Assembly: GCA_964035545.1 (NCBI GenBank)
Contig: OZ037772.1
Location: forward strand, 1,699,001-1,763,000
DNA: 64,000 nt
Source of the DNA: Bugula neritina
Taxonomy: Eukaryota > Bryozoa > Gymnolaemata > Cheilostomatida > Bugulidae
Direction of reading: 5' to 3'
Positions 21,786 to 55,420 of the stretch are shown here, one piece after another; the stretch's first letter is position 1, and the number at the start of each line of letters is the position of its first letter. The notes beneath the pieces are model-generated. The model had not been told where the DNA came from. It did not search any database and saw only the letters and a list, made by a program, of their open reading frames with translations. The position numbers and the translations under genes are program-made.

Positions 21786-22103
21786 ACAGATTAGATAATT
21801 CGAACATAAAATGTTATAAACTATATATATAAAAAAACTGAGAGAGCGTGTGGCACATAAAGAAAAACATGGCTATGTACAGTAGTAAGAAACATATACA
21901 TATATAAAAAATATAACAGTAAATATACAATGGCACCGGCGGGAGGCACTATAAGGGAATAGTTTGTAGAGGTAGAGCTGTATACTGGTAGGTTACTATA
22001 TTGTTACACTGAGTAATTGTCTGTGAGCACTGGCGTGAGAAGGGTCTGTAATGGGGCACCACCTGCTGTACCATCACGGATAGGGAAAGGAGGGACATCA
22101 TTT

Positions 22104-23248: not shown

Positions 23249-23257
23249 ACTCAGCGT

Positions 23258-27693: not shown

Positions 27694-27819
27694 TACTGGT
27701 AACGGACTGAAGCGGTTGGTGAGAGGCAGAGAGAAGGGGTCTCGTGGTCGACCTGGTTGGCTGGTACGGCGAGGTGTTTGCCATTGACGGGGGTTGTGTC
27801 GCTGGGCCCGTACGGGCTC

Positions 27820-28695: not shown

Positions 28696-28757
28696 TGAAG
28701 TTACTCCCTCGTCTATGATGTTCTAATACTTCTCATTGTTCTTATACAGTAGCTAGA

Positions 28758-28776
28758 AATCCCACCGCTGCCACCA
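28758..28776 (-). promoter_or_regulatory. Primer binding site of element A, tRNA-Leu type
   Basis: The minus strand reads TGGTGGCAGCGGTGGGATT one base after the LTR. It is the exact complement of the 3' end of metazoan tRNA-Leu (AATCCCACCGCTGCCACCA) as I recall that tRNA. Elements B and C share 18 of these 19 bases. Confidence 0.8.
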
Positions 28777-28777
28777 C

Positions 28778-29049
28778 TGTAGTAAATTTGTGTAACTACT
28801 ATGCGTGGGTTCCTAGCTTGTAATTATGTCTATTTATCTACACCAATAAAGTATTTAGGTAAAAGTTTCCAAGTTTATTTACTACTAATTATACAAAAGA
28901 TACAGCTTATACACAGATTAGAGATTACATCCTCGCTTAGTTAGCACGCTCTCTCTACTGCAAAACTACTACTAACTAAGGCCTATCACGTGACGCACTT
29001 GGATAGGCTGAAGGAATGCGGGGGACGCGCGTATTACGTCCTCACTACA
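28778..29049 (-). repeat. 5' LTR of element A
   Basis: 272 bp, differing from the other LTR at only a couple of sites (ACTATGCG versus ACTACGCG; CACGTGACG versus CACGGGACG). Confidence 0.95.
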
Positions 29050-32406: not shown

Positions 32407-32758
32407 CGTAGTAATTTGTGCAATTACTGAGCGTGAGTTATTTACTTGCGTATAGTTAGCTGGTTATTCTGTTATCAATTACTAAGGTAGCTGTCGAGTA
32501 ATTATATTTATTATCCACAATAAAGCATCAACCAAACATCACATCAAATTATCCTATACAAGAGTCAACTACTAACACATGTTACTACTACAAGCCTCCG
32601 CTTACAACAACGTGATATAATGTTAATAACCCGGGAAGTGTCACGTGACTCGGAAGCATATCTTCCGGAGCTGCTAATTGGTTGCTACATAAGAGTCTAA
32701 GTATTCCAAGAGTAGGGAGAGGGCGATTCCTGTATTTGTACTTGCACTACTCACTACA
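32407..32758 (-). repeat. 3' LTR of element B
   Basis: 352 bp. The terminal TGTAG is CGTAG at this end, a point change that would impair the terminal dinucleotide. Otherwise it is almost identical to 37320-37671. Confidence 0.93.
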
Positions 32759-32790
32759 CCGTCCCCCCCAGCAGAAAGCCCTACTTTCTG
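32759..32790 (-). promoter_or_regulatory. Hairpin and polypurine tract of element B
   Basis: CAGAAAG-TAGGG-CTTTCTG (32790-32772, minus) is followed by CTGGGGGGGACGG next to the LTR, as in element A. Confidence 0.7.
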
Positions 32791-33050
32791 ATAACACAAA
32801 AAAAAAAACATAATGAAAAACCATACAATAATCCAAAAAGGAAAACATATATAAGTAAACCCACAAAGAGTAAGAAAAGAAATAGTTAAACACGACAACG
32901 TTTACATTAGAAGACAACAGGGTGATCGATCACACACATCTAGTCAGCTATTAAGAGAGAGGGTGCTTACCAGCACGCGGGCCAATGTCGGAGCGCTCGT
33001 CACATTCCAAACGAGCTATAGCTCAACGAAGGTGCCTACCCCAGGCATTC

Positions 33051-34103
33051 TCATTGGTTGGACTCTGCTTCTTGTAGCGACCGTGCTCTGTGTCGAGCCT
33101 GTCGGGCCCGTAGCCGCCTCTTCAGTCGCCCTACTGAGTCTTTCAACTGGTATAGACCTGTCGTCGTATCCAGCAAGTCAGGGGCAAGTTGTGTGAACTC
33201 GGCTTGTAGTCTTAGAAGCCGCTCTTCTACGTTAGCCAGCTGGCTAGGCCTTGGTGGGGTTGTAGGGGTCTCCGTTAGACGGGATATGGTTGTTTCTTCT
33301 ACTTCTGGGGTGTTGCTAGGGTTGACGGGGGTAGGAGGTGGGCCCTGAACCATAGGGGACTTATGGCGGGCAGATAGTAGCAGTACGTGAAACCCTGACG
33401 TTAGTGCGGCCAGGGTGATAGCCTTCCTGATGACTGGCTTGATGGCATCCAGGTATAGGGGGAAACTGTCTTCATCAACAGTGTGGTTCTCTTCGGCGAA
33501 GCAGCTTATCTTATGTACTGTCACGGGATACGGGTAGACGTCGTGGAACCCGCAGGGACAGAAGTGGAGTAGGAAATGGGCGTCTACATGTAAACGCAGG
33601 GAGCGGTGCGACGGGCACTCCTCAAAGCAGACCTGGCAGGTTCGGTGTGGTCCACTGGGTCCCCAGGCTTCTTCAATTCTCCTCTCTGTCGTGGGTGACA
33701 CCCAACGGTGTCGTCGGCGGAGTACTACTGGTATGCCATTCTCCATTACAGGCTCTTCTTCCATAGACAGAGAGGTTGGCTGGTCCCGTGACCGGGAGGT
33801 GGTCACTCGAGTGTGATCTGAAAGAGTAGCAGTGTTAAAGATTATACACTGAGACACCGTCGGCTTGTACAGCCTGACCGGTACTCTGTTCAGTTACACT
33901 CGTGAGATTCAGGCTAATGAATAGTTGATGGAGAACACACTCGCTATGACAGATTATTTAAAATCAAAGTCGACGTGTATTCCCACCACTGTTTATCATT
34001 ATCGAATCTCCAGCTAGCTAGTGTAGCTAAGCTGACTGATGCAGTCTAGTTATCGTACCAAAAACATAATTAACTCACCCTTCGATCCAGAATAGTAAGA
34101 CAT
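33051..34103 (-). CDS. ORF3 of element B: zinc-finger/coiled-coil protein, two exons
   Basis: Exon 1 is 34103-34079 (25 nt, starting ATGTCTTACTATTCTGG). Its donor is GTGAGT at 34078, the acceptor is CTACTCTTTCAG ending at 33818, and exon 2 is 33817-33051; phase is kept. Exon 2 alone is open from 33857, but its upstream start would lie inside the pyrimidine-rich intron end. The protein has a C2H2 finger (CQVCFEECPSHRSLRLHVDAH), a second Cys/His cluster (FCPCGFHDVYPYPVTVHKISC) and a helix DEDSFPLYLDAIKPVI. A Pro/Thr linker and a C-terminal coiled coil with an Arg-rich end (LKRRLRARQARHRARS) follow. It is about 93% identical by eye to element C's ORF3 and shares architecture with A's. Its role is unknown; DNA/RNA binding is plausible. 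Confidence 0.82.
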
Positions 34104-34126
34104 TTTGGAATGAGAGTGGTAAATGA

Positions 34127-36487
34127 TTACTGTTTACTGGCACGTCTACTCTCGACTGCATCAACATAGGAAAAGACCGGACAGCGTGGTTGTGAAACAT
34201 GGCTAGGGCTTTTCACTTCCAGCGGATGAATCTCGTGTGAGATTCCGCCGAGGCAAAAGTTGAGATTCTCGTGGTGATCACAACTCCCACGGCTCTTTGC
34301 CTGTTTTCCCATGCGAGGCTTCTCTAGACTTTTGTTACTGCCGCTTATACCGCGGTCACGTACACAGTCTCTGAGACACGCTGGAAGTTGCCTAGTGTGT
34401 GGTCCTGGTCCTATGTTGGTATCTCCTTGCGGAGCCCCTCCCACGGGGGGTTTTTGCACTTCCGGACCTGTTTCTGGTTCCGGAAGTGGTGATGGTGGCA
34501 GGCTTGACGTTGGGGGCGGTGAGCGCACTTTCAAGGACGGAAGTGGCCTTTCTCGCCTCGCCAAGTCTTCCTGACGTGTCATGGAGGTGTTTCCGGCCAG
34601 GTTGACAGTCTCCGCCTGCCGAGACCTTCTTGCACAATGCGTCTGCCGCCCCACTTCACCAGGGAGACGGCTATGCTTGTTGGTCTGGCAGACTTTGCAC
34701 CGTCTCACTCTGCGTCGGATATCCCGTTCCATGTTAGGCCAGTACCACCGGAGTTGTAGCTTGGTGACCACCCCTTGGACTCCTCCGTGAGTCTCCTCGT
34801 GGGTGTCTTGTATCAACTTCCGGCGGATGGCAACTGGGCAGACAACCCTCTTCCTGGCTGGCTGTCTGCTGTTGGCGGCCAAGGTCATGGTTAGCAGACC
34901 ATCTGGCCTGACCCGCAGAGAGCTCCAACGTTGACAGTACAGCCGTAACTCGGCGCATCCCTGTCGCCGTTGTGTACTACTGGGTCGTCGCCCCTCCTGT
35001 TTCGCTCGGTACACGTCGGCTACCACCCCAGGAAGGCATTCCTGGAGCTTCGGCAGCTCCCTAACGTTACCAGCCCATACAGGTTTGGCGCGGAGGCTCT
35101 GGGCAGCCTCCGGGGGCGTGTCAGCCCTCTGTTGGAGTGGCTGAGCAGGGGCGGTCCTCGCCGCCCGTGGTACCTCACGGCAGCCTGCTCTATTTAGGCG
35201 GGCTCCGTGGTCTGTGTGGCTGAACGCCTCACTGTACCCATGTGGCAACCTAGCCATAGCCTGGCGCTTCCCGTTGCCTGTGCAGCCACGCGTCCCTGGA
35301 GGAGGGGAGGCGTGGGTTGGGACGGTCCTCCGCCCTCGAGACGGGCTCTGCTGAGGACCTTCCGTCGTAGCTCCCGACGACGGCCCAATGGCTTCCTCCT
35401 GGACAGGATGGAAGCGACCCAGCATGGATCTGGGTGGTAGGTCTACTGTCTCTGAGAAGGGGTTGACACACTGCACTGAGATCTCTCCTTGCCTCGTGAG
35501 CCGGCTAAAACTACGGGCAAGTTGGACTCTCGAGTGCGTACTTTCGACAACTCCCAACTTAGAGGTTTGGCCACCGTCTACCTTGCAGCGGACGGTAGCC
35601 CGGGAGTGGCCTGGTATAGTACAGCTCCGTACTACCTGCACTGCTCCCGCTAGAGGACGACCAAACTTATCGACACAAGCGAGCTCCTTGTCGCCCATGA
35701 TTATCGCAGATTTACTGAAATCGATGCGACAACCGTGTCGTTGTAAGAATGGCATCCCGAGGATAGCATCCTCGTTGAGCTGCCCGACGATAAACGTCTC
35801 TTGGATGGCCTGGTTACGGACGTAACCAGTTAGCTCAATAATGCCGTAGAAGGGAATGCATGACCCGTCTGCCAGGGTGCCATGATCCCCCTCATACGGT
35901 GCCAACCCGTCCTTGACCTTAGCGCTGAGGGTGTCAAAGAACTGACGGCTAAGGAGGTTGGTGGTGCAGCCGGAGTCCAGGAGGAAGTTGGCAGGCTTGC
36001 CGGCTAACTTCCCTGGTAGGAAGTAGCTACTTCCGTGCGGCTGCAATTGAGTGTGCCGTGGTTGCACCTCCCTCGCTGTGGGTCGAGGGGTCCACGGTTG
36101 GCGGCGACTATTGACCAGCTGCCGAGGTTGGGGCGGTACGCCTTGCGGCGCTTGTACCGTTTCCCTCGCAGGCTCTGTGGTCAACCGTCTGCCGGCTCCG
36201 TGTTGGTGCCGGAGTGGCGTAGAGGACCCAGGCGGCGAGTGGCTTGAGCCTACTTGCCGCGGGGGTCGCCACTTCACAGCATCTCCGCGCGGCGCCCAGC
36301 GGGGCGACAGACGCGCGGGCCTTCCTGGGTGATTCACAGACGGCCCGCAGGAGGTGGGAACATCTGCGGGCCGGGGTAGTTTAACCCTGGTGGGAGCTGA
36401 GGGCAGTTTCTCTGGAAATGTCCTGGCCTTCCGCATTCCCAGCAGAAGTGGTGCCCCATGCCTGGTGATTGTACCTGCGGCCCGCAA
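34127..36487 (-). CDS. pol: Pol remnant of element B: protease fused to integrase zinc domain and C-terminal domain
   Basis: This 786-codon open frame would be entered by -1 frameshift near 36379. Retropepsin: NFLLDSGCTTNLLSRQFF and AILGMPFLQRHGCRIDF. After the protease the sequence degenerates, then resumes at the tail of the RNase H/integrase linker (PGVVADVYRAKQEGRRPS) and an HHCC-like integrase zinc segment (CKVCQTNKHSRLPGE). It then goes directly to the Pro-rich tail and the Cys/His domain (RGSCDHHENLNFCLGG; QPRCPVFSYVDAVESRR). RT, RNase H and the integrase catalytic core are gone, but the deletions leave the frame open. That pattern suggests either selection for the rest or very recent loss. 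Confidence 0.85.
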   Translation of the reverse strand: MRAAGTITRHGAPLLLGMRKARTFPEKLPSAPTRVKLPRPADVPTSCGPSVNHPGRPARLSPRWAPRGDAVKWRPPRQVGSSHSPPGSSTPLRHQHGAGRRLTTEPARETVQAPQGVPPQPRQLVNSRRQPWTPRPTAREVQPRHTQLQPHGSSYFLPGKLAGKPANFLLDSGCTTNLLSRQFFDTLSAKVKDGLAPYEGDHGTLADGSCIPFYGIIELTGYVRNQAIQETFIVGQLNEDAILGMPFLQRHGCRIDFSKSAIIMGDKELACVDKFGRPLAGAVQVVRSCTIPGHSRATVRCKVDGGQTSKLGVVESTHSRVQLARSFSRLTRQGEISVQCVNPFSETVDLPPRSMLGRFHPVQEEAIGPSSGATTEGPQQSPSRGRRTVPTHASPPPGTRGCTGNGKRQAMARLPHGYSEAFSHTDHGARLNRAGCREVPRAARTAPAQPLQQRADTPPEAAQSLRAKPVWAGNVRELPKLQECLPGVVADVYRAKQEGRRPSSTQRRQGCAELRLYCQRWSSLRVRPDGLLTMTLAANSRQPARKRVVCPVAIRRKLIQDTHEETHGGVQGVVTKLQLRWYWPNMERDIRRRVRRCKVCQTNKHSRLPGEVGRQTHCARRSRQAETVNLAGNTSMTRQEDLARRERPLPSLKVRSPPPTSSLPPSPLPEPETGPEVQKPPVGGAPQGDTNIGPGPHTRQLPACLRDCVRDRGISGSNKSLEKPRMGKQAKSRGSCDHHENLNFCLGGISHEIHPLEVKSPSHVSQPRCPVFSYVDAVESRRASKQ

Positions 36488-37284
36488 GGCTCACGGGCAG
36501 TATCTACCTGGCTTGGGGAGGCTAATGTGGTGACCAGTTTATCTAGCATGTCAGTCATCTGTGAGATTTTTGACGCTAGTGACATCTGGTTCACATTAGC
36601 CACCGCGGAGGGTTCCGCATTTAATTCGGTGTGAGCAGTAGAGTGCTCCGTGGTCACCTGGCGGGAGGCCACGCGGTTGCGGTGCATATGAGTCGCCAAG
36701 AGGTAGGCTTCTCCCACCGCAAGTGCATCTTCGACTGTGGTGACTCTCCTCGCTTGGAGTTGATGGTGGAGCCCCAAGTCGTTGATGGACTGCACGAAGG
36801 CATCATAGGTATACCTCTCACGGTGTACCGGAGGCAGATCGCGGAATGCGATCTGCGCTAATGGGTACACCGTGGCAGCGTGCTCTTCTAGTGACGTGTG
36901 AGGATCACGCCGCATCCTCTGTAGACGGGCCCGCGCATCTATGGGAGAGATGCCAAAACGGGCCCGCAGGGAAGCAAAGATTCCGTCTATGTCAGGTCCA
37001 GCTCCGTACGGCTTAGCTTTGCCCGTCAGCGCCATCCTGAGCTTTAGCAACGCCACCCTTGGCGGCCATTCTGCAATCTCCATCACATCCTGGAATTCTT
37101 GGATGAACTGCTCCACTGCTTCTTCGCCGGTGAAGTTGGGCGCCTTCAGCCGGTATCTATCTTCACCATGCTCTCTAAGAATTCTCACTTCTTCATCTAA
37201 CACCACTGGTTCCACAGGTATATCAACATTATCTCTCTCACCTTCATTCAGTGGAATGGGTAGCTCCGTGCCGTCTTCTGCCAT
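36334..37284 (-). CDS. gag: Gag of element B with CCHC zinc knuckle
   Basis: The ATG at 37284 (GTCATGGCAGAAG) is the likely start, giving about 316 residues; a longer frame upstream begins only at a TTG. Capsid region: APNFTGEEAVEQFIQEFQDV, KLRMALTGKAKPYG, ARFGISP, RYTYDAFVQSINDLGLHHQ. A CCHC knuckle, CWECGRPGHFQRNC, lies near the C-terminus. The frame overlaps the pol remnant by about 150 nt in the -1 relation and carries the slippery heptamer at 36385-36379. It would form the particle shell and bind RNA. The intact frame with near-identical LTRs suggests it was recently functional. Confidence 0.9.
   Translation of the reverse strand: MAEDGTELPIPLNEGERDNVDIPVEPVVLDEEVRILREHGEDRYRLKAPNFTGEEAVEQFIQEFQDVMEIAEWPPRVALLKLRMALTGKAKPYGAGPDIDGIFASLRARFGISPIDARARLQRMRRDPHTSLEEHAATVYPLAQIAFRDLPPVHRERYTYDAFVQSINDLGLHHQLQARRVTTVEDALAVGEAYLLATHMHRNRVASRQVTTEHSTAHTELNAEPSAVANVNQMSLASKISQMTDMLDKLVTTLASPSQVDTAREPCGPQVQSPGMGHHFCWECGRPGHFQRNCPQLPPGLNYPGPQMFPPPAGRL
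36341..36385 (-). promoter_or_regulatory. -1 ribosomal frameshift signal, gag to pol, element B
   Basis: On the minus strand GTTAAAC (36385-36379) is in the correct gag phase (G TTA AAC). A 5-nt spacer TACCC follows, then a perfect 10-bp GC-rich stem, CGGCCCGCAG (36373-36364) with CTGCGGGCCG (36350-36341), around a 13-nt loop. The pol remnant is open in the -1 frame across this point. GUUAAAC followed by a structured RNA is an established frameshift arrangement (equine arteritis virus uses that heptamer). Confidence 0.8.
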
Positions 37285-37301
37285 GACTGCTATACGCAAG
37301 A

Positions 37302-37318
37302 TCCCACCGCTGCCACCA
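37302..37318 (-). promoter_or_regulatory. Primer binding site of element B, tRNA-Leu type
   Basis: TGGTGGCAGCGGTGGGA on the minus strand, one base from the LTR, as in elements A and C. Confidence 0.75.
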
Positions 37319-37319
37319 C

Positions 37320-37671
37320 TGTAGTAATTTGTGCAATTACTGAGCGTGAGTTATTTACTTGCGTATAGTTAGCTGGTTATTCTGTTATCAATTACTAAGG
37401 TAGCTGTCGAGTAATTATATTTATTATCCACAATAAAGCATAAACCAAACATCACATCAAATTATCCTATACAAGAGTCAACTACTAACACATGTTACTA
37501 CTACAAGCCTCCGCTTACAAGAACGTGATATAATGTTAATAACCCGGGAAGTGTCACGTGACTCGGAAGCATATCTTCCGGAGCTGCTAATTGGTTGCTA
37601 CATAAGAGTCTAAGTATTCCAAGAGTAGGGAGAGGGCGATTCCTGTATTTGTACTTGCACTACTCACTACA
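37320..37671 (-). repeat. 5' LTR of element B
   Basis: 352 bp, TGTAGTAATTTGTGC...CTCACTACA in plus orientation. It is the same LTR type as element C and the solo LTR at 45371. Confidence 0.93.
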
Positions 37672-40754: not shown

Positions 40755-41106
40755 TGTAGTGAGTAGTGCAAAGTACAAATACGGGAATCGCCCCTTCCCT
40801 ACTCTTGGAATACTTAGCCCTTATGTAGCAACCAATTAGCAGCTCCGGAAGACATGCTTCCGATTCACGTGACACTTCCCGGGCTATTAACATTATATCA
40901 CGTTGTTGTAAGCGGAGGCTTGAAGTAGTAACATGTGTTAGTAGTTGACTCTTGTATAGGATAATTTGATGTGATGTTTGTTTTATGCTTTATTGTGGAT
41001 AATAAATATAATTACTGGACAGCTACCCTAGTAATTACTAGCAGAATAACCAGCTAACTATACGCAAGTAAATAACTCACGCTCAGTAATTGCACAAATT
41101 ACTACA
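40755..41106 (+). repeat. 5' LTR of element C
   Basis: 352 bp, TGTAGTGAGTAGTGC...AAATTACTACA. Same LTR family as element B. Confidence 0.95.
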
Positions 41107-41107
41107 G

Positions 41108-41124
41108 TGGTGGCAGCGGTGGGA
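41108..41124 (+). promoter_or_regulatory. Primer binding site of element C, tRNA-Leu type
   Basis: TGGTGGCAGCGGTGGGA one base after the 5' LTR. Confidence 0.75.
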
Positions 41125-41141
41125 TCTTGCGTATAGCAGTC

Positions 41142-42278
41142 ATGGCAGAAGACGGCACGGAGCTACCCATTCCACTGAATGAAGGTGAGAGAGATAACAT
41201 TGCTATACCTATAGAACCAGAAGTGGCACAGGACCCCCACGCCGAACCTGTCTCAACCGATGGCGTCAAGGAGCTAGGACACCTTCAGGAAATTATTCCA
41301 GGGGTGGTAGCCGACGTCTATCGAATGAAACGGGAAGGGAGACGACCCAGTGACAGACAGTGGAAGCTGGGCTGCCCTGAGTGGCAGCTGTACTGCCGAA
41401 GTTGGAACGCACTGCAGATCGGGCCGGATGGTCTACTGTCCATATCCTTGGCCGATAACCACCACCAGCTAGACCAGGAGAGGACCCTCTGTTCTGCCGC
41501 CATCCGCCAAGAGTTGATAGAAGAGGTACACCAACAGGCTCATGGGGGAGCCCAACAGGTGTTCACCGAACTACAACTCTGGTGGTATTGGCCTCACATG
41601 GAGCGTGATGTACGACACAGCGTTGGGCAGTGCGGAGTCTGCCGGGTCAGTAAGCACGGCCCCCCTACTGAGGAGGTAGGGCGGCGAAGGCAAAGTGCAG
41701 AAAGACCCGGGCAGACGGAGACTGCTAACCTGGTCGACAAACCGCCTAGTATGCAACCCAAAGCAGTGGCGAGGCAGGAAAAGCCACACCCGTTCAGGGA
41801 AGTGCGCTTACCGTCGTTAGCGTGCAAGCTGCCACCGCCACTCCCTAGGTCAGGAACCGACCTGGAAGTGCAAAAACCCCCCAAGGGAGGGGCTCCGTGC
41901 GGAGGTACTGGGAAAGCTCCATTTGTCACAAACTGGCTGAAGGCACCACCCAAGCGACGTGACCGTCCACGGGTGCGTAAACCGCCTTGGTTAGTGACGA
42001 CACCTGGGAAACGGTGTTCTAAGCCAGGCCCCGCGTATCGCAAGGACTTACCACGTTCCGTTAAGGGCGCGGTCAAACGTCCTACGAGACGCCGTGAGGG
42101 GAAGGGAGCAGAGCGTGGGAGTTGTGAGCACCACGACAATATTGACTTTTGCCTCGGCGGAATCTCACACGAGATTCATCCGCTGGAAGTGAAAAGCCCT
42201 AGTCACGTTTCACAACCACGCTGTCCGGTCTTTTCCTATGTTGATGCAGTCGAGAGTAGACGTGCCAGTAAACAGTAA
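41142..42278 (+). CDS. Fused Gag N-terminus / integrase zinc segment / C-terminal Cys-His domain of element C
   Basis: From the ATG at 41142 (GTCATGGCAGAAG, the gag start of B) the frame gives about 378 residues. The first ~25 match B's Gag (AEDGTELPIPLNEGERDN). It then joins the segment before integrase (PGVVADVYRMKREGRRPSDR), a zinc-domain-like stretch (CGVCRVSKHG) and a Pro/Arg-rich tail. It ends with RGSCEHHDNIDFCLGG and QPRCPVFSYVDAVESRR. The open frame across two large deletions is notable. No enzymatic domain remains. It could act only as an RNA/DNA-binding accessory, or not at all. Confidence 0.82.
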   Translation: MAEDGTELPIPLNEGERDNIAIPIEPEVAQDPHAEPVSTDGVKELGHLQEIIPGVVADVYRMKREGRRPSDRQWKLGCPEWQLYCRSWNALQIGPDGLLSISLADNHHQLDQERTLCSAAIRQELIEEVHQQAHGGAQQVFTELQLWWYWPHMERDVRHSVGQCGVCRVSKHGPPTEEVGRRRQSAERPGQTETANLVDKPPSMQPKAVARQEKPHPFREVRLPSLACKLPPPLPRSGTDLEVQKPPKGGAPCGGTGKAPFVTNWLKAPPKRRDRPRVRKPPWLVTTPGKRCSKPGPAYRKDLPRSVKGAVKRPTRRREGKGAERGSCEHHDNIDFCLGGISHEIHPLEVKSPSHVSQPRCPVFSYVDAVESRRASKQ

Positions 42279-42301
42279 TCATTTACCACTCTCATTCCAA
42301 A

Positions 42302-43359
42302 ATGTCTTACTATTCTGGATCGAAGGGTGAGTTAATTATGTTTTTGGTACGATAACTAGACTGCATCAGTCAGCTTTAGCTACACTAGCTAGCGAGCTGG
42401 AGATTCGATAATGATGAACAGTGGTGGGGATACACGTCGACTTTGATTTTAAATAATCTGTCATAGCAAGTGTGTTCTCCATCAACTATTCATTAGCCTG
42501 AATCTCACGAGTGTAACTGAACAGAGTACCGGTCAGGCTGTACACGCCGACGGTGCCTCAGTGTATAATCTTTAACACTGCTACTCTTTCAGATCACACT
42601 CGAGTGACCACCTCCCGGTCACAGGACCAGCCAACCTCTCTACCTATGGAAGAAGAGCCTGTAATGGAGAATGGCATACCCGTGGTGCTCCGCCGACGAC
42701 ACCGTTGGGTGTCACCCACGACAGAGAGGAGAATTGAAGAAGCCTGGGGACCCAGTGGACCACACCGAACCTGCCAGGTCTGCTTTGAAGAGTGCCCGTC
42801 ACACCGCTCCCTGCGTTTACATGTAGACGCCCATTTCCTGCTCCACTTCTGTCCCTGCGGGTTCCACGACGTCTACCCGTATCCCGTGACAGTACATAAG
42901 CTAAGCTGCTTCGCCGGAGAGAACCACACTGTTGATGAAGACAGTTTCCCCCTATACCTGGATGCCATCAAACCAGTCATCAGGAAGGCTATCACCCTGG
43001 CCGCGCTAGCGTCAGGGTTTCACGTACTGCTATTATCCGCCCGCCATAAGTCTCCTATGGTTCAGGGCCCACCTCCTACCCCCGTCAACCCTAGCAACAC
43101 CCCAGAAGTAGAAGAAACAACAATATCCCCTCTATCGGAGACCACTACAACCCCACCAAGGCCTAGCCAGCTGGCTAACGTAGAAGAGTGGCTTGTAAGA
43201 CTACAAGCCAAGTTCACACAACTTGCCCCTGACCTGCTGGATACGACGACAGGTCTATACCAGTTGAAGGACTCAGTAGGGCGACTGAAGAGGCGGCTAC
43301 GTGCCCGACAGGCTCGACACAGAGCACGATCGCTACAAGAATCAGAATCCAACCAATGA
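42302..43359 (+). CDS. ORF3 of element C: zinc-finger/coiled-coil protein, two exons
   Basis: Exon 1 is 42302-42326 (25 nt) with donor GTGAGT. The intron, 42327-42592, ends CTACTCTTTCAG, and exon 2 is 42593-43359; phases agree. The sequence closely matches element B's ORF3, with the same C2H2 finger (CQVCFEECPSHRSLRLHVDAH), CPCG cluster, DEDSFPLYLDAIKPVI helix and basic coiled-coil tail. The differences seen are mostly single-residue substitutions without stops, so the frame has stayed open in a derivative that lost nearly everything else. Confidence 0.82.
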
Positions 43360-43621
43360 GAATGCCTGGGGTAGGCACCTTCGTTGAGCTATAACTCGTT
43401 TGGAATGTGACGAGCGCTCCGACATTGGCCCGCGTGCTGGTAAGCACCCTCTCTCTTAATAGCTGACTAGATGTGTGTGATCGATCACCCTGTTGTCTTC
43501 TATTGTAAATGTTGTCGTGCTCAACTATTTCTTTTCTTACTCTTTGTGGGTTTACTTATGTATGTTTTTCTTTTTGGATTATTGTATAGTTTTTCATTAT
43601 GTGTTTTTTTTATTGTGTTAT

Positions 43622-43656
43622 CAGAAAGTAGGGCTTTCTGCTGGGGGGGGGGTCGG
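43622..43656 (+). promoter_or_regulatory. Hairpin and polypurine tract of element C
   Basis: CAGAAAG-TAGGG-CTTTCTG (43622-43640) then CTGGGGGGGGGGTCGG up to the 3' LTR. Confidence 0.7.
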
Positions 43657-44008
43657 TGTAGTGAGTAGTGCAAAGTACAAATACGGGAATCGCCCTCTCC
43701 CTACTCTTGGAATACTTAGCCCTTATGTAGCAACCAATTAGCAGCTCCGGAATATATGCTTCCGATTCACGTGACACTTCCCGGGCTATTAACATTATAT
43801 CACGTTGTTGTAAGCGGAGGCTTGAAGTAGTAACATGTGTTAGTAGTTGACTCTTGTATAGGATAATTTGATGTGATGTTTGTTTTATGCTTTATTGTGG
43901 ATAATAAATATAATTACTGGACAGCTACCCTAGTAATTACTGGCAGAATAACCAGCTAACTATACGCAAGTAAATAACTCACGCTCAGTAATTGCACAAA
44001 TTACTACA
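43657..44008 (+). repeat. 3' LTR of element C
   Basis: 352 bp, nearly identical to the 5' copy. Confidence 0.95.
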
Positions 44009-44012
44009 GTAT

Positions 44013-45224: not shown

Positions 45225-45370
45225 ATTAATTTAATTAAATTACTAGTTTATATTACCAAGTTATATTACTAGTTTATATTACCAAGTTATACTACCAGTT
45301 TATATTACCAAGTTATATTACTAGTTTATATTACCAAGTTATATTACTAGTTTATGTTACCAAGTTATAT
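45225..45370 (+). repeat. 26-bp satellite, first block
   Basis: Monomer TATTACCAAGTTATATTACT+AGTTTA. The array continues at 45701-45840, 47250-47522 and 55240-55420, having been split by three insertions. Confidence 0.95.
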
Positions 45371-45700
45371 TGTAGTGAGTAGTGCAAAGTACAAATACGG
45401 GAATCGCCCTCTCTCTACTCTTGGAATACTTAGACCCTTATGTAGCAACCAATTAGCAGCTCCGGAAGATATGCTTCCGATTCACGTGACACTTCCCGGG
45501 TTATTAACAATTTATCACGTTGTTGTAAGCGGAGGCTTGAAGGAGAAACATGTATTAGTAGTTGACTGATGTATAGGATAATTTGATGTGATGTTTGTTT
45601 TATGCTTTATTGTGGATAATAATTATAATTACTAGCAGAATAACCAACTAACTATACGCAAGTAGATAACTCACGCACAGTAATCGCACGAATTACTACA
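45371..45700 (+). mobile_element. Solo LTR of the element B/C family
   Basis: 330 bp beginning TGTAGTGAGTAGTGC and ending AATTACTACA. It matches the 352-bp LTRs of element C with small deletions and is flanked by ATAT duplications (45367-45370, 45701-45704). It is probably what remains after recombination between the two LTRs of a full element. Confidence 0.93.
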
Positions 45701-45840
45701 ATATTACTAGTTTATATTACCAAGTTATACTACCAAGTTATATTACTAGTTTATATTACCAAGTTATATTACTAGTTTATATTACCAAGTTATATTACTA
45801 ATTTATGTTACCAAGTTATATTACTAGTTTATGTTACTGA
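45701..45840 (+). repeat. 26-bp satellite, second block
   Basis: Same TATTACCAAGTTATATTACT+AGTTTA monomer, resuming directly after the solo LTR. Confidence 0.93.
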
Positions 45841-46002
45841 AGTAAATTTGTGTCTGACACCAGGTGTCACTATTGACGGTAAGTAATCTCACTTAACAAT
45901 GAGGGTCGGAATAGAATTCCCTTGTGCGGAAAACTAATTAAACTATCTAATACTGTTTGTTGCCAAATTATTTGCTAATGTGATTTTAATATTTTCCAGT
46001 GA

Positions 46003-47018: not shown

Positions 47019-47249
47019 ACTGGCATGCAGACTACTAGTCTATTCTGATAATCCACAAAATCACAACAATATCAAAATTAGTTGACCTAGCTTTGAGTTA
47101 GTTAAATTATATTGCCAGAATGATTTAACTTGCAAGTCCGATAAAAATCACCTTGACCTAGTCTCTATATTCACAATATTGTTATTCAGGGCCGTCAACT
47201 TGACGCAACGTGTACTGCTCGATGGCTCTAGTAATATGTTTTACTACAT

Positions 47250-47522
47250 TACCAAATCAAATTACTAGTTTATATTACCAAGTTATATTACTAGTTTATG
47301 TTACCAAGTTATATTACTAGTTTATATTACCAAGTTATATTACTAGTTTATGTTACCAAGTTATATTACCAGTTTATATCACCAAGCTATATTACTAGTT
47401 TATATTACCGTGTTATATTACTAGTTTATATTACCAAGTTATATTACTAGTTCATGTTACCAAGTTAAATTACTAGTTTATATTACCAAGTTATATTACC
47501 AGTTTATATTACCAAGTTATAT
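47250..47522 (+). repeat. 26-bp satellite, third block
   Basis: About ten monomers of TATTACCAAGTTATATTACT+AGTTTA, ending where element E begins. Confidence 0.95.
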
Positions 47523-48209
47523 TGCTATAGATGTATTCAAGTATTATTTCATACTTGACATTTTGTATGCTATACCACTACAATATAATATACTACAGAT
47601 ATAGCATCCTGCTTCCCTGCAACCTTAGTTAGGGCTTAATATTGTTTTGTATTGAATACTTCCATGTATTCTATCTTTTCCCCATTTATAATATCTCTTT
47701 TCTTCCATACATAGTGTATGCCTAATATATAGAATAACAGTAACATTAAATAGACACACACTTACAAGGTTATACACCATGATACAGGACATACAACTAG
47801 TTATTGGAGATGGTACAACATTAGCCCTAAAATTATACTTCCACATATATGATGTTTCGCAACAGGACTTCTAGCCTAAGGATTATAGCACTTCGCTCTT
47901 TAGCTATAAGGTACTTATCACTTTCGTACCCTTACCTTTTATGTTGAGTGACGGAGCTCTGGCTACAAGAAGTAAGCAATGAGAGAACCTTCTGTCTAAA
48001 CGTGGCAGCTTTGGTACAGGATTCCAGATCTCTTGTACACTAGAGTCCGTCGTAAGCAGATGTGACTGAAGAGAAGAATAATACCGGTAAGTGTGATACC
48101 AACTATCAACGCGTTATAGTTATACACATGTAGAATATTCTAATTGTATGCATACCCTGTGTTATATTAGGTACTTAGTAGTTGAAAACCCCCAGTACTC
48201 AATATAACA
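47523..48209 (+). repeat. 5' LTR of element E
   Basis: 687 bp, TG...CA; pairs with 54553-55239 at about 99% identity by eye. Confidence 0.95.
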
Positions 48210-49328
48210 TTTTGGAGGAGGCACTGGCTTTTGCCCAAGGTTGCCCTTGTTAAATATTGTGTCCAGCTTTGAATTAATAGCTCTTGACACTTGGTTAACC
48301 ACCCCGTGCGCCAGGGGATAAAATTATATTAATACTTTAGATAGTGTTGATCAGGCCTCATTTGGCTGTTCACTAATATTTTCCTGTAGGTTTTCTATTC
48401 GCTGAGCTTATATTTTGCTCGTGGGTAGACCGTAGAAGTGCTAGGCCGCACTGAGAAAATATTAATTGAAGCCAAAAAGGATCAACTTTTACATATTACC
48501 CCAAAACAATATACATCCATAGACTAATAGTAATAGAGCGAGAATTCCTATATGTTTAATTTTTCTCTGCTGCTTAAAAGGTGAAAACAAGCCAGTTTTA
48601 ATTTTTTTAGCCTAGAGATAATTAATTGTAGAAGTGAATTACCTCCCTTTGCTAATAGGCTAATTTAGTTGTATAATTGGGTGAGCTGCAGATAAGGTTA
48701 ACACGCTCCTTATTTAGCAGTTAATAAATTCCAAACAGATTCAGTCTACGACTGTCTGTTGAGGTATAGGCGCTGACAAGTACTATAATTAATAGTCTTG
48801 TCCTAAACATAATTTCTTATAATTATCTACAATTTACTTTGCAGTGCATTGCCAATCAGAGCATCACTGAATTGTATATTATATATTTACACAGTATATG
48901 AATATTACATTGCAGTACTAAGTATTGCAACACCTGCAGTGCAGTCAGAGTATTATAGTACAAAGCATTGTCCTATTACGTATTATAGTACCTAAGTACA
49001 ACAACCGCCTTACTACATAGTACGAATATCAAACTAATTAATTACTGTGGTTGACTAAATTTAGAGTTTAGACTAGGCTTGAATAGCAGAAATAACTGAA
49101 TAATTTGTAGTGTACAGAGGTCATAATAAAAGACTTCCACTAACTTAAAGTATTTAACTGCAAGCCACACCTTGTCATATATACAGGATAGTACATGCAC
49201 ACATATCGTTGAGTAAGAAATAGACACATAATTGTACATTAGCACAAAGTATAAACATTAATAACATTGCAAACAAGTACTGCTGAACTCACTTATTAAT
49301 TGAGAATTATAAGTCACGCACCAACAAT
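48210..49328 (+). other. Leader of element E
   Basis: 1.1 kb without a coding frame. A possible primer site, TGGAGGAGGCACTGGC, begins 4 nt after the LTR (48213); the tRNA was not identified. Packaging and splice-donor signals would lie here, but I cannot point to them. Confidence 0.55.
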
Positions 49329-52300
49329 ATGAGTACCGGAATCGTGACCACCGCCACAACTACAGTCACCACTAGTGTTAGTACTATTGCGACACCAGGT
49401 AGTGCCACAAATGTAGCCACGGGCTTAGACACTCCTACTCTCTCACAAGACTCGACAAGAGAAGGAGCTCACGCATTGGTTGAGTTGTCCGCAAGACGAC
49501 TCCCAATGAACCCGCATGAAATTGCAAGGTTCTACGAGTTAGAATACAAGAAACTTGTAGAGGAGCAGGAAAAGCAAAAGGATGTATGGAGATATGAGCA
49601 AGAACAATGGCGACAGTATCAACAAACGAAAGAGCATGAACTGGCGGAACAGTTTCAGCGCCTCGAGGTAGAAAGACAAGAGCAAGCAAGAAGACGGTAC
49701 GAGATGGAGGAACGTTTTGAAATCCAACGGAGAAAGTTCTATGAGGAACAGAGCGCTGTTCAAGAACAACAGCAAAATGAGTTCCTGGAAAAAGAGCATC
49801 GGCTCACAATCCAGCAACAAAAGTTACAACAACAACTTGAAGATTTTCGGAATCTCACCTTGGGTCAAAGATCTACCAATGATGCAAATGTCATGCCGGA
49901 ACCAACTCCGCCACCTCGAACTCGCCTACCTCCACCAGTTACGCCACGGAAAACAAGTAGAAGACAACTTCATGAACAACCAGCACCTACAAATACTACC
50001 TTGGAATTCACATCAAGTTATCCCCACATTGCTAATCAACGATCACCAAAACCTCATAACTCACCAATTCAAAGCTTAGCTGAAACACCATCTGAACCCA
50101 GCATTGGAGTAGCTGATGCGGGAAAATTTCACAACTCACCTATTATTCTGAGAGAGCCTCCACAGAACATCAAATTTAAAGGAACTCCTGGTTTCAGCTG
50201 GGAGTTATTTCTTGAAAAATGGGAAAAGAACATAAAAAAACTGCAGCTTAGTGATTATCAGATGGCACAAAACCTTCCATATGCCCTGGAAGGTGGTGCC
50301 TATCAGGTTTTCAAGGCAGTAGTTGCAAAGGAGCCCACGCTAGCGATTAGTTACAAAAGTCTTCGAGAGAGGTTATGCAAAGAGTTTGTCGACTCAAGCA
50401 AATTAGTGTGGAACATAAAGATGAGGAAGAAAAGCGTATTAGAATATTATGGCGAATTTATGGAAGCTGCCAACACCCAATGGCCTGACCTCTCCCTTGA
50501 ACATAAAGATAGCGAACTAGTATCTGCTTTTATTACTGGTCTACGACCAGGATTGAAGAGGCACATCCTCTCTAAAAACCCCACAACTGTAGAAAGTGCT
50601 AGGAAACTTGCACTTAAGCAAGAAAATGTAGAACATCAGATGGGAGATGACACCCAGAGAATAGTGGCAACGGTAAACTCATCGGACTCAGTTCAAAAGC
50701 TAGAAAAAGAGGTAGAATGGTTGAAAACTTTAGTGCACAACCAAGCTAAAGAGCAACGGCAGCCCCAATACCAACAGCACCAACAACAGAGTCAAGGGTT
50801 TGGAATGAGAAATGACAGAGGTAGAGGTGGTGGATGGAGAGGAACAACAAACCGAGGAAGAGGACGAGGTAGATACTTCAACCAGGGGAAGCCTCAACCC
50901 TACTACCAATCTTCTCCCCGGTACCCTCATCCACCAGCACAACTTCCTTCCTGCCCACCTCAACCACCCTCTCACCAGCAACCACAACGTAATCAGTGCT
51001 CTGGTCAACAGAGAAAAACCAAAGATTACAGTGGGACGCGACACATCAATGCTATTGAGAGCCTGGAAGGTGATGAATTTGCCGAGGCCCTTCTGACTCA
51101 GCCTCCTCAAGATGAGATAGCTGAGGAATCAGTGAATTCAATTCAAACCTCCCCAAATGAATTCATCTCTGACAGAAAACCCAAAAGAAAAAGAAGCAGA
51201 GGACGGGGGACTGGTTTGTCAACAATGCAAACCTACATGTTGGCACTAGTGGCAATGTGTATGCTAATCAGTGTAGCCGCAGCCACTGCACCAGTAAAAG
51301 GCACAGCTCTCCTGGGGCCAGCTTTGGCCAGTCAGACTCTCACCAGCATACTATCTGTGTTAGTGTTGACAGCAGTAGTGAATGCATTGTCTAACACGAC
51401 TGTTTTTAACACTACACAGAAGGCACAGCCGCAGTATGCCAGGTATCCTTTGGTGTGTAGTTCCAGTGAAGTGAGGCGACCATCTATTCATCAATTGAAT
51501 CATGACTTCCAATGTGATCCGACTCCAAGACCCAATAGTACTCATGCGCCAACCCCTGTGAAGGCTACGGTTTACAGAAAAAATGTAGTGGAATGGCGTA
51601 CAGCAGCCTATCAATGCACTAAAATGCTGTACACCATCTCCACACAGATATCACTTTTTACGGACGTGAAAACTAAGAAGGAATCTCACCGGTCACTGCC
51701 AGTTAGCCGCAGCGAATGCGAAAATATGGTACTAGAGAAGAGATGCAATGAAGGTGCCCTATCTGGAAGTGATGGTGCATACACTACAAAAAACAAAGCT
51801 GTAGGATTAGCTTATGTTTGGTGCTGCAAGTGGCATCACTTTGAAGTGAAACAATGCAGTTATATTTCAGCTTCGGTATACAAGACATTTGGGAAAAGTT
51901 CTTTTGAAAGCACCGCAGGTGACGTTTCCCATTGCAACTCATACTCTGATGGCTACTGCAAACTCAGAGATCAATCTATGCTAATATGGGAAACAGAACG
52001 AGAAGCTAATTGTCCATACGAGGAGTGGTATGAAGTTGAAGGAAGTTTCCTTGATGGCTATTTTGTTAGTGATCAAGAAGACTTGGCTTTAACTTTCCGC
52101 AAGAACCCCTTTGAGAATATTACCACTTGTGACGGCAAGTCAGGCACAATGTCGGACCAAGGTTTGCTTGTTGTTTTTAATACTTCAGACCTGTTCAACA
52201 CCACTCTAACGCAACACGTTGAAAAAGCTCCTGGACTAGAATGGGACCGCAGGAGTCGTTTGAGTCCAGCATATGCTGTCATGGACGCTATAGCTCAGTC

Positions 52301-53336
52301 CCTAGAAGTACAGATCCTCGGAATCGAATCAAAACTGTATTGGACATCTTATCAATATACCTGTAAAAACATAGTTCAAGTCCTCAAAACCGTAGCTCTC
52401 CTCGCAGAGCAACATGCGACGAGTACAGCCAGATACTTACTAGGGGTAAGCAATATCCGAGCTGAGTCTGGTCCTGGTTTTCTAAAGATTTACCCATGTA
52501 CGGAAATAAAAAGCTACAAAATGCTCCCTATGCCAGAGAATAATTGCACCATGTTTATTCCAGTGGAATTGGAACTCAGTGGGGAAACGCACACTGGTTT
52601 CATGGATCCAATGGATAACATTATTCACACACAAAGTGCACAAGCACCGTGCACATCCAAATCAGCAATTGCATTCCGGATGAACGATGAATTGTTTTGG
52701 TATAACCAAGATGGTACCGTAGAAAAGGTTAATCTTGGAGAAGAGCTGAGTTTACCTGGAATTTCTCTAGGTGCACACCCTCTTAAAATCCATGAAACAA
52801 TCTACAGCCGTGCCCATCACTTAAGTTGGCCTGACCTGTCAGCACACTCTGACTTGAATGAATTGCTAGCTACTTTGTCAAGACAGAAACAAGTTTTAGA
52901 AGCAATGGGAATTCAATCCAACAGACATGTTTCCTTTAAAAACAATGTCATTGAGTCGAAAGAAAACTTGATAGGGAACTCTTGGTTTGCTTTCCTGTTT
53001 GGAGGGCATGTGGCGAGTGCATTCGAATTGTGGACTTTGATATCCAACTGTTTAGTCACCATATTGTCAATTGCATTGCTAGGTATTTTCCTATATAATC
53101 GTTGTTGCCAGCGAAGGAGAAATATTGTAGCAGCTATCGACATTGAGGACACAGAGAACACATCTGACAATGATGTTGAGGCAGGAGAACAGGATGGGTT
53201 CCTGGACGCTTCCGATCAGACTAGCTTCACAGAATTCGTAGATATGGTAGAGGTGGACACTAGACCAACCCCTAGTGCTCCTTCGCCTGCATCCTCAATT
53301 CAGCAATATCGCCCCCTCTATCCGAAACTGCAATGA
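49329..53336 (+). CDS. Gag-envelope-like fusion protein of element E
   Basis: 1335 residues in one frame from ATG at 49329. Residues ~70-180 form a Glu/Gln-rich coiled coil. Residues ~280-450 are a retrotransposon Gag capsid (FKGTPGFSWELFLEKWEKNI, then LREYGEF-like 'VLEYYGEFMEAANTQW' and FITGLRPGLKRHIL). Residues ~490-525 are an RGG/GR-rich RNA-binding box in place of a zinc knuckle. A polybasic, furin-like segment (KPKRKRSRGRG) precedes a signal-peptide-like hydrophobic stretch at 633-655 (MQTYMLALVAMCMLISVAAA). A ~570-residue Cys-rich ectodomain follows, with about seven Asn-X-Ser/Thr sites. A transmembrane helix lies near 1233-1258 (LVTILSIALLGIFLYNRCC), with an acidic cytoplasmic tail. 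The ectodomain looks like an enveloped-virus surface glycoprotein. Class III-type proteins of negative-strand or chu-like viruses are my tentative guess, not established. A spliced message could express the glycoprotein alone. Confidence 0.82.
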   Translation: MSTGIVTTATTTVTTSVSTIATPGSATNVATGLDTPTLSQDSTREGAHALVELSARRLPMNPHEIARFYELEYKKLVEEQEKQKDVWRYEQEQWRQYQQTKEHELAEQFQRLEVERQEQARRRYEMEERFEIQRRKFYEEQSAVQEQQQNEFLEKEHRLTIQQQKLQQQLEDFRNLTLGQRSTNDANVMPEPTPPPRTRLPPPVTPRKTSRRQLHEQPAPTNTTLEFTSSYPHIANQRSPKPHNSPIQSLAETPSEPSIGVADAGKFHNSPIILREPPQNIKFKGTPGFSWELFLEKWEKNIKKLQLSDYQMAQNLPYALEGGAYQVFKAVVAKEPTLAISYKSLRERLCKEFVDSSKLVWNIKMRKKSVLEYYGEFMEAANTQWPDLSLEHKDSELVSAFITGLRPGLKRHILSKNPTTVESARKLALKQENVEHQMGDDTQRIVATVNSSDSVQKLEKEVEWLKTLVHNQAKEQRQPQYQQHQQQSQGFGMRNDRGRGGGWRGTTNRGRGRGRYFNQGKPQPYYQSSPRYPHPPAQLPSCPPQPPSHQQPQRNQCSGQQRKTKDYSGTRHINAIESLEGDEFAEALLTQPPQDEIAEESVNSIQTSPNEFISDRKPKRKRSRGRGTGLSTMQTYMLALVAMCMLISVAAATAPVKGTALLGPALASQTLTSILSVLVLTAVVNALSNTTVFNTTQKAQPQYARYPLVCSSSEVRRPSIHQLNHDFQCDPTPRPNSTHAPTPVKATVYRKNVVEWRTAAYQCTKMLYTISTQISLFTDVKTKKESHRSLPVSRSECENMVLEKRCNEGALSGSDGAYTTKNKAVGLAYVWCCKWHHFEVKQCSYISASVYKTFGKSSFESTAGDVSHCNSYSDGYCKLRDQSMLIWETEREANCPYEEWYEVEGSFLDGYFVSDQEDLALTFRKNPFENITTCDGKSGTMSDQGLLVVFNTSDLFNTTLTQHVEKAPGLEWDRRSRLSPAYAVMDAIAQSLEVQILGIESKLYWTSYQYTCKNIVQVLKTVALLAEQHATSTARYLLGVSNIRAESGPGFLKIYPCTEIKSYKMLPMPENNCTMFIPVELELSGETHTGFMDPMDNIIHTQSAQAPCTSKSAIAFRMNDELFWYNQDGTVEKVNLGEELSLPGISLGAHPLKIHETIYSRAHHLSWPDLSAHSDLNELLATLSRQKQVLEAMGIQSNRHVSFKNNVIESKENLIGNSWFAFLFGGHVASAFELWTLISNCLVTILSIALLGIFLYNRCCQRRRNIVAAIDIEDTENTSDNDVEAGEQDGFLDASDQTSFTEFVDMVEVDTRPTPSAPSPASSIQQYRPLYPKLQ

Positions 53337-53340
53337 CTAG
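53334..53340 (+). promoter_or_regulatory. Stop-codon readthrough context UGA-CUAG
   Basis: The Gag-Env frame ends in TGA followed directly by CTAG. The same frame then stays open through the protease to about 53846. UGA CUAG is the established leaky-stop context of readthrough in several animal genes and, as UGA CUA, in some RNA viruses. Confidence 0.75.
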
Positions 53341-53846
53341 AAGCCGACACACCCAGTACTAGTAGCCGCATTGAAATAGTAGCAGGAATAAATGGTAGTC
53401 AATGTAGGAGTGCGTTAATTGATGTCAAAATAGCAGGAAAACCGTATCAAGCATTAGCTGATGCCGGGGCTACGGTGACATTGATGCGCTCTGACATTGC
53501 TAAAAGATTGAGTCTACCATTATATTCAGGTACCTTGACTGCAAAAGGGGTTAACAGCTCTAAACTTCATATAATAGGACGCACGGCCGCTGAGATTACA
53601 ATTGGATCGAAAGTGTTTAAGCAGTGTTTTCATGTAGCTGATGATATTGGCCATGAGGTACTGCTTGGAACTGATTTTCTTAGCAAACTGGGTGATGTCA
53701 CCTACAATTTTGCAAAAGGAGAGTTTCGTTTCTCTGGCGAAACTTTACCCATGGGAGAAACCAACGCACTAACTACTTTTAAAATAAGAACTGTGAATGC
53801 AGTACACATACCACCATATTCTCACCCGATTCATTACTCTACATAA
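53337..53846 (+). CDS. Retropepsin of element E, reached by stop readthrough
   Basis: It is open in the Gag-Env frame immediately after the UGA, about 169 codons. The aspartic protease fold is recognisable: an N-terminal strand (GKPYQALADAGATVTLMRSD) with DAG at the active-site position, and a C-terminal 'HEVLLGTDFLSKLGDVTYNF' motif. The active-site triplet is Asp-Ala-Gly where Asp-Thr/Ser-Gly is usual, so activity may be reduced. No ATG lies before the active site, so independent initiation is unlikely. The frame ends just where RT would normally begin. Confidence 0.8.
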   Translation, partial: LEADTPSTSSRIEIVAGINGSQCRSALIDVKIAGKPYQALADAGATVTLMRSDIAKRLSLPLYSGTLTAKGVNSSKLHIIGRTAAEITIGSKVFKQCFHVADDIGHEVLLGTDFLSKLGDVTYNFAKGEFRFSGETLPMGETNALTTFKIRTVNAVHIPPYSHPIHYST

Positions 53847-54552
53847 CCATGCAGATATACCAGATATACTAATATTTACTACCATATTAATAATCAAGTT
53901 TTTCAACGGAACACAGGAGTTTTCCTGTTGTTCACAGGGGGAGTACTTTAACATTTTTTTCAGCATTACAGGTTAACATCTCCTACAGTTTTGGCTTCTT
54001 ATAAAACAAACTTACTAAAAATTGCAGAAATCAAATTGACTTTTGATTAAAATAAAATTAAGTAAGCTCTGTATTGGGAAAATTGAATCAAATCAAGCGG
54101 AATTTTTAAATATTCAAAGTTGGATAAAATGCGGAGTCGATTGTTATCACCACCTCCTGTGACTTATGTTTATAATATTCATAATTAGTGTATTTTTAGT
54201 AAATGTTTACTTATGGCTAAAGTCTTGTTTTTTTATTTTATCAACAGATATAGTTCATCAAAAAAAAAATAATAATGAAAATATGGTTACAAAAAAAAGG
54301 AACAATGTAAGAAATGAGTGAAAAAAAAATATGTGACCAGAACAAAAAAAAATACTCACTCTAATCGATGAACTCACTAGTACTAATAGAATACATATAT
54401 ACAACAGCTAGTATACATAATTTTCAAATTTTACTCATTCTATTGTGAAAGGTTTTTCTTCCTTTTTTTTATTTCAGAGTAGTAATGCTTAATTGTTTAT
54501 GCTTTCAACAAGCATAAGCCACCGGAGGTGTCTTTCTCTAAATTGGGGAGGA
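53847..54552 (+). other. Non-coding 3' region and polypurine tract of element E
   Basis: About 700 nt, stop-rich and with long A runs; no pol remnant is recognisable. It ends in TTGGGGAGGA (54543-54552), a polypurine tract abutting the 3' LTR. Confidence 0.7.
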
Positions 54553-55239
54553 TGCTATAGATGTATTCAAGTATTATTTCATACTTGACATTTTGTATGC
54601 TATACCACTACAATATAATATACTACAGATATAGCATCCTGCTTCCCTGCAACCTTAGTTAGGGCTTAATATTGTTTTGTATTGAATACTTCCATGTATT
54701 CTATCTTTTCCCCATTTATAATATCTCTTTTCTTCCATACATAGTGTATGCCTACTATATAGAATAGCAGTAACATTAAATAGACACACACTTACAAGGT
54801 TATACACCATGATACAGGACATACAACTAATTATTGGAGATGGTACAACATTAGCCCTAAAAGTATACTTCCACATATATGATGTTTCGCAACAGGACTT
54901 CTAGCCTAAGGATTATAGCACTTCGCTCTTTAGCTATAAGATACTTATCACTTTCGTACCCTTACCTTTTATGTTGAGTGACGGAGCTCTGGCTACAAGA
55001 AGTAAGCAATGAGAGAACCTTCTGTCTAAACGTGGCAGCTTTGGTACAGGATTCCAGATCTCTTGTACACTAGAGTCCGTCGTAAGCAGATGTGACTGAA
55101 GAGAAGAATAATACCGGTAAGTGTGATACCAACTATCAACGCGTTATAGTTATACACATGTAGAATATTCTAATTGTATGCATACCCTGTGTTATATTAG
55201 GTGCTTAGTAGTTGAAAACCCCCAGTACTCAATATAACA
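54553..55239 (+). repeat. 3' LTR of element E
   Basis: 687 bp. It has the same length as the 5' LTR with about six substitutions, for example GGTGCTTAGTAG versus GGTACTTAGTAG. Confidence 0.95.
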
Positions 55240-55420
55240 ATATTACCAGTTTATGTTACCAAGTTATCTGACTAGTTTATATTACCAAGTTATATTGTCA
55301 GTTTATATTACCAAGTTATCTTACTAGTTTATATTACCAAGTTATATTACTAGTTTATGCTACCAAGTTATATTACTAGTTTATATCACCAAGTTATCTT
55401 ACTAGTTTATACTGCTAGTA
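55240..55420 (+). repeat. 26-bp satellite, fourth block
   Basis: The array resumes after element E with more variable monomers (TTATCTTACTAG, TTATATTGTCAG). Confidence 0.9.

Follow-up and report, generated by a model that had tools for sequence, protein, structure and literature searches.

The stretch analysed here (the window) comprises 64,000 nucleotides of the genome of the bryozoan Bugula neritina and corresponds to positions 1699001-1763000 of contig C8 in the host assembly that we searched (G000, 216 Mb, 295 contigs). At 47523-55239 it carries a long terminal repeat (LTR) retroelement with a gag-env-UGA-pro layout, in which pol is missing. A single open reading frame (ORF) on the plus strand (49329-53336, 1335 codons) has Gag first and a membrane glycoprotein at its end. 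The TGA at 53334-53336 is the only stop between this Gag-Env frame and an in-frame retropepsin (PRO), whose frame is closed by the TAA at 53844-53846. The original prediction had described 687-bp LTRs differing at about six sites and flanked by ATAT, and a 1335-codon Gag-glycoprotein frame followed by one UGA and a retropepsin. We count 6 mismatches between the LTRs and find ATAT on both sides, and the coding layout is upheld by the ORF and by Pfam matches to the Retrotrans_gag capsid (PF03732, E 1.2e-6) and to PF13975 (E 1.6e-13). The insertion site is a 26-bp AT-rich satellite that resumes beyond the far side of the element, and because the surrounding satellite is AT-rich, the 4-bp ATAT match is weak on its own. 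The same satellite occurs at 45235-45371, 45701-45843, 47248-47527 and 55243-55411, so that it both flanks the element and recurs nearby. The features of the element are as follows.

47519-47522, no strand: left target-site duplication, ATAT, 4 bp
47523-48209, plus strand: 5' LTR, 687 bp, TG...CA
48213-48227, plus strand: putative primer-binding site TGGAGGAGGCACTGG, proposed from its position and TGG start
49329-51173, plus strand: Gag part of the Gag-Env frame, supported by related frames; capsid match PF03732 at about 50280-50549
51174-51206, plus strand: basic block RKPKRKRSRGR ahead of the internal signal-like segment; comparable basic stretches in relatives
51240-51296, plus strand: internal hydrophobic segment, putative Env signal peptide (hydropathy)
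51300-53015, plus strand: Env ectodomain, placed among the class III fusion glycoproteins (Monjiviricetes/gB type) from its relatives and a fold prediction
53016-53093, plus strand: Env membrane anchor, approximate (hydropathy)
53271-53282, plus strand: PSAP late-domain-type motif, Env tail
53316-53330, plus strand: LYPKL late-domain-type motif, Env tail
53331-53340, plus strand: stop context CAA-UGA-CUAG, type II readthrough motif
53337-53843, plus strand: in-frame retropepsin PRO (PF13975 at about 53418-53684), with the first residues of the linker between PRO and reverse transcriptase (RT)
53847-54539, plus strand: 3' non-coding region; the pol deletion lies about here (the match to locus L059 resumes at 54289)
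54540-54552, plus strand: polypurine-type tract AAATTGGGGAGGA
54553-55239, plus strand: 3' LTR, 687 bp, TG...CA
55240-55243, no strand: right target-site duplication, ATAT, 4 bp

As the original prediction had stated, the element contains no detectable RT, RNase H or integrase; a tblastn search with a related pol (E<=1e-3) matched only PRO within it, and another element, at 24-27 kb, accounts for the window's matches to these three domains. A search of the assembly with the LTR returned 47 matches, of which 18 span the whole LTR at >=95% identity. Thirteen of these full LTRs frame seven internal regions, of which C8 holds four, including a tandem pair, and C1, C2 and C9 hold one each; the other five LTRs are unpaired. 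Gag is present in all seven regions and PRO in six. In each of the six copies that retain PRO, about 690-730 bp separate it from the 3' LTR, which leaves no room for pol, and the C1 copy is even shorter. The proposal of a non-autonomous lineage is thereby borne out by the LTR and ORF search. Its alternative, a pol deletion, holds as well, in that pol was deleted and the deleted form then multiplied; with seven pol-less internal regions, a fresh and unique deletion is excluded. The Gag-Env frame of the C2 copy is shortened to 852 amino acids, and in the C9 copy Gag and PRO are each interrupted by a stop. The tandem (C8:2512534-2527328) consists of three LTRs and two internal regions and was perhaps formed by LTR recombination.

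Between pol-less copies, pooled ratios of nonsynonymous to synonymous change (dN/dS) were about 0.26 for gag, 0.21 and 0.14 for the N- and C-terminal parts of env, and 0.36 for pro, with single pairs ranging from 0.05 to 0.86; all pairs include the window copy and hold few changes. Copies L025, L026, L028 and L029 entered the pools for gag and the N-terminal part of env, and L011-L013 those for the C-terminal part and pro; L010 and L024 (0-3 changes), the decayed L030 and L051, and also L014 and L027 were left aside. By the pooled ratios, amino-acid changes are rarer per site than silent ones, so that Gag, Env and Pro of this family apparently remained functional once pol had been lost. RT and integrase would then have to be supplied in trans.

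The history of this gene order is recorded in pol-bearing relatives within the same genome. Locus L043 (C7, 12.3 kb) has the order gag-env-UGA-pro-RT-RNaseH-integrase, with PF13975, PF00078, PF17917/17919, PF17921 and PF00665 following one another in pol, and its Env is 41.8% identical to that of the window over 584 alignment columns. Its 639-bp LTRs are identical, which indicates recent insertion, and TAGC lies on both flanks. L045 is a decayed relative (96% alike). L051 (C1), decayed and broken in several places, aligns with the window element at about 94% identity through gag, env and the greater part of pro, and RT, RNase H and integrase come next; its RT piece shows 65-66% similarity to the L043 clade, whereas the other RTs scored (150 of 1167 candidates) reached 42-46%. 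About 8 kb past the L051 integrase match, L059 holds the 3' end of the window family (93%) and an internally deleted LTR, and the two are likely parts of one element, the intervening stretch having been read in part. In the window element, L043, L045, L047 and L051 alike, env follows gag and precedes pro, and no gag-pro-pol-env copy was found among the loci examined, which were gathered without a completed genome-wide env search. Because the pol-bearing L051 and the L043 clade have the same order, the position of env is older than the split of the two clades, with pol lost later in the window family. The original prediction had pointed out that a simple pol deletion leaves the position of env unexplained, and that full-length relatives would reveal the ancestral order; L043, L045 and L051 all read gag-env-pro-pol, and since they share gag-env-pro, the surprising feature is the gene order of the lineage and not the window copy. 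A second pol-less form is represented by L049 (C3) and L050 (C6), deletion derivatives of the L043 clade without the Env C-terminus, pro and pol; each has an identical LTR pair, with duplications CAGT and GTAC, respectively.

Further Gag-bearing frames were seen in the assembly. In L055 (C1) and L056 (C5) a single frame joins a distant Gag and a zinc knuckle-like motif to a hydrophobic segment and an N-terminal fragment of Env; they are only weakly alike, were excluded from all counts and may belong to a third Gag-Env lineage that has diverged very far. L048 (C1:34014000-34023900) is an LTR element with Gag and a CCHC knuckle only; its LTRs are 98.9% alike and its primer-binding site resembles that of L043.

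Its relatives and a fold prediction place the envelope among the class III fusion glycoproteins of the Monjiviricetes/gB type. Its model, of moderate confidence, has a gB/G-type fold with a long central helix (a poorer first model, pLDDT 45.8, already matched gB and was superseded), PF24664 is matched in relatives, and the ectodomain cysteines are conserved across the alignment. No match to Env was found in the Protein Data Bank by sequence at E<=1 or in PHROGs, and a viral contig collection held no relative when queried with the Env alignment or with the related proteins P0006 and P0016; a repeat protein search with the Env alignment returned the same five proteins again. An in-frame Gag-Env fusion is also present in 13 public proteins of 1134-1374 amino acids. 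In 6 of the 11 proteins scored there is no methionine between 16 residues upstream of the signal-like segment and its third residue, and in one of these six, P0001, the segment itself also lacks methionine; no segment reached the threshold in P0007, P0010, P0014 or P0015, and the short proteins P0002-P0005 and P0018 were left out. This pattern favours translation as one chain, although it falls short of proof. In the window element a second hydrophobic segment follows at about 51324-51380. Upstream of the signal segment, a VNxV/INxI-type motif pair recurs around a short spacer (DEFA..L..QP-like) in the window element and its relatives; spotted by eye, these motifs at the Gag-Env junction are candidate protease sites.

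At the other end of Env, late motifs (P[ST]AP, PPxY or [LIVM]YPxL) occur in all 17 complete tails, compared with 1.0 expected, and 14 of the 17 end in glutamine, compared with 1.1 expected from shuffling; P0004, P0005 and P0010 end before the tail and were not counted. Motifs of the P[ST]AP, PPxY and YPxL types recruit ESCRT, and the budding signal is normally supplied by Gag. The stop codon that follows has the context CAA TGA CTA at 10 of 10 loci, seven of the window's clade and three of the L043 clade, decayed copies included. Readthrough at UGA-CUA is often accompanied by a stem-loop. Such a structure is predicted 3' of the stop in L043, L045 and L047 (z -4.75, -3.68 and -2.58); as it is not specific in L043, RNA structure as the stimulator of readthrough was dropped. 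In the portions of the published record consulted, UGA-CUAG is reported to give efficient readthrough in mammalian genes (PMC4132726), and UGA-CUA is listed as a viral type II context, including that of alphaviruses (PMC3542737).

These observations make it probable that the window element is a pol-deleted, multiplied member of a Ty3/Gypsy-type gag-env-(UGA)-pro-pol lineage, which would express Gag, signal peptide, Env and anchor as one polyprotein and Pro-Pol by readthrough. The full-length RNA would be translated into a single Gag-Env chain, in which the internal signal sequence could send the Env part into the endoplasmic reticulum while Gag remains cytosolic; beyond the membrane anchor, the Env tail would be cytosolic again. 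Most ribosomes would end at the UGA and yield Gag-Env, and a minority would read through and append Pro(-Pol), which would come to lie on the cytosolic side beside Gag because it follows the cytosolic Env tail. The protease and signal peptidase would separate the parts, and the late motifs of the Env tail could recruit ESCRT for budding.

Several observations weigh against this interpretation. Readthrough, signal cleavage, topology and budding were deduced from motifs, the loci with the common stop context are related copies rather than independent ones, and the public Gag-Env fusions were seen as protein records. In the window element no 3' stem-loop follows the UGA (z +0.75), and two other stretches of L043 fold equally or nearly as strongly as the one behind its stop (z -5.92 and -3.77). 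The tails of P0007, P0011 and P0012 lack the terminal glutamine, and those of P0007 and P0008 lack YPxL. No Pfam family reaches its cut-off with the window Env (the best match, 0.11, is to an unrelated family), and the Foldseek TM-scores of its model are low (0.2-0.4). With respect to the upkeep of the pol-less family, the highest single-pair dN/dS values were 0.86 for env (4 changes) and 0.61 for pro, and about 438 bp, with most of PRO among them, are missing from the C1 copy.

Other explanations must be set beside it. In many retroviruses env is spliced, and here too env could be a spliced cassette, with Gag-Pro-Pol made from an RNA that has lost env by splicing, or Env made from a message whose splice site is close to the Env start, and the UGA simply ending Env. 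Separate initiation would be permitted by the methionine just upstream of the signal-like segment in 5 of the 11 proteins (window, L043, P0012, P0013 and P0016) and early inside it in P0006 and P0009. However, P0001 has no methionine there, Gag and Env share one frame in the 13 public proteins, and the constancy of CAA...CUA around the UGA would be unexpected for an ordinary stop, and we regard this explanation as unlikely. Marginally less probable still is that the glycoprotein, captured long ago, does not function as an envelope and serves only as a membrane anchor for Gag in an element that spreads within cells only. The identical LTR pairs of L049 and L050 fit this idea, because they indicate that intact Env in cis was dispensable for one round of movement; against it stand the conserved ectodomain cysteines and predicted fusogen fold, the apparent constraint on env between pol-less copies, and the late-type motifs, which suggest particle release.

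That env came to stand between gag and protease in the window copy through a one-off rearrangement or a misassembly has very little left to recommend it. Published env-bearing elements do carry env as an addition, which in Dingle lies downstream of integrase according to the part of that report consulted. This explanation is already contradicted by the seven internal regions, the decayed L051, the 42%-identical L043 clade and the public Gag-Env fusions, and the misassembly that the original prediction had held in reserve is excluded by the recurrence of the layout at other loci.

We return to the one-chain, readthrough interpretation in comparing this lineage with known systems. It is of the Ty3/Gypsy type (Metaviridae) as judged by pol domains, Gag and LTRs: it has a Retrotrans_gag capsid in the window copy and CCHC knuckles in relatives, the pro-RT-RNaseH-integrase order in L043 (the window copy itself being without pol), TG...CA LTRs and 4-bp duplications (ATAT in the window, TAGC in L043, CAGT in L049, GTAC in L050), within the 4-6 bp of that group. 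Unlike Ty3/Gypsy elements, it carries env between gag and pro, in frame with Gag. Errantiviruses and other env-bearing gypsy elements are likewise LTR elements with a captured glycoprotein, but their env lies downstream of pol, not upstream of the protease, and the gag-pro-pol-env order of Retroviridae is not that of the window element, L043, L045, L047 or L051. The candidate stop resembles the leaky stop of gammaretroviruses and alphaviruses in preceding the polymerase part, although it follows the envelope tail and theirs follows gag or a replicase part. The structural polyproteins of alphaviruses and flaviviruses place capsid, an internal signal and glycoproteins in a single chain, as appears to be the case here; these are positive-strand RNA viruses, without reverse transcription or a pol behind the glycoprotein. 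Captured class III envelopes are already known in LTR elements. The annelid element Dingle has a gB-like env (PMC7854359, in the part consulted), and thus shares a captured gB-type glycoprotein with the window lineage, although its env comes after integrase and not before the protease. Anakin, of the BEL/Pao group, carries a glycoprotein taken from chuviruses (PMC7642597, likewise in part); the captured chuvirus-type glycoprotein is common to both, whereas Anakin belongs to Pao and the Pfam domains of the window lineage point to Ty3. Troyka has CG...CG ends, a 3-bp duplication and no env, according to the portion of its description consulted (PMC12440569), and so differs from the window element, with its TG...CA ends, 4-bp duplication and env.

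The window contains other LTR elements. One at 21477-29049 on the minus strand has 272-bp LTRs (99.3% alike), gag at 27823-28722 (300 amino acids, named by position only), pol at 23623-27819 and, downstream of pol, a 371-amino-acid frame (22107-23219) with no Pfam match; its GC content is 53-59%, against roughly 30-38% for most of the window. Elements at 32408-37671 and 40755-44010 belong to one family in opposite orientations, with LTRs of 351-354 bp that are 98.6-99.4% alike within each, and LTR-like remnants lie near 45371-45709.

Descriptions of env-bearing retroelements usually place env after pol, as an additional gene. In the present lineage it lies inside the structural gene, upstream of the enzymes, in two pol-bearing clades and in the 13 public Gag-Env fusions. 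We found no description of a gag-env-pro-pol order in the portions of the literature searched, a search that did not cover the closest survey (Chary & Hayashi, eLife 2025). The chances seem about even that these elements constitute a separate, widespread enveloped lineage, with a particle of Gag and Env in a 1:1 ratio, Pro-Pol made by readthrough and budding driven by the Env tail, together with a pol-less satellite family that parasitises it. If so, the lineage would represent another route from retrotransposon to enveloped virus, in which the stoichiometry of Gag and Env is genetically fixed and the budding signal has shifted from Gag to Env, and the family in the window would be a natural satellite that has retained the particle genes and not the polymerase.

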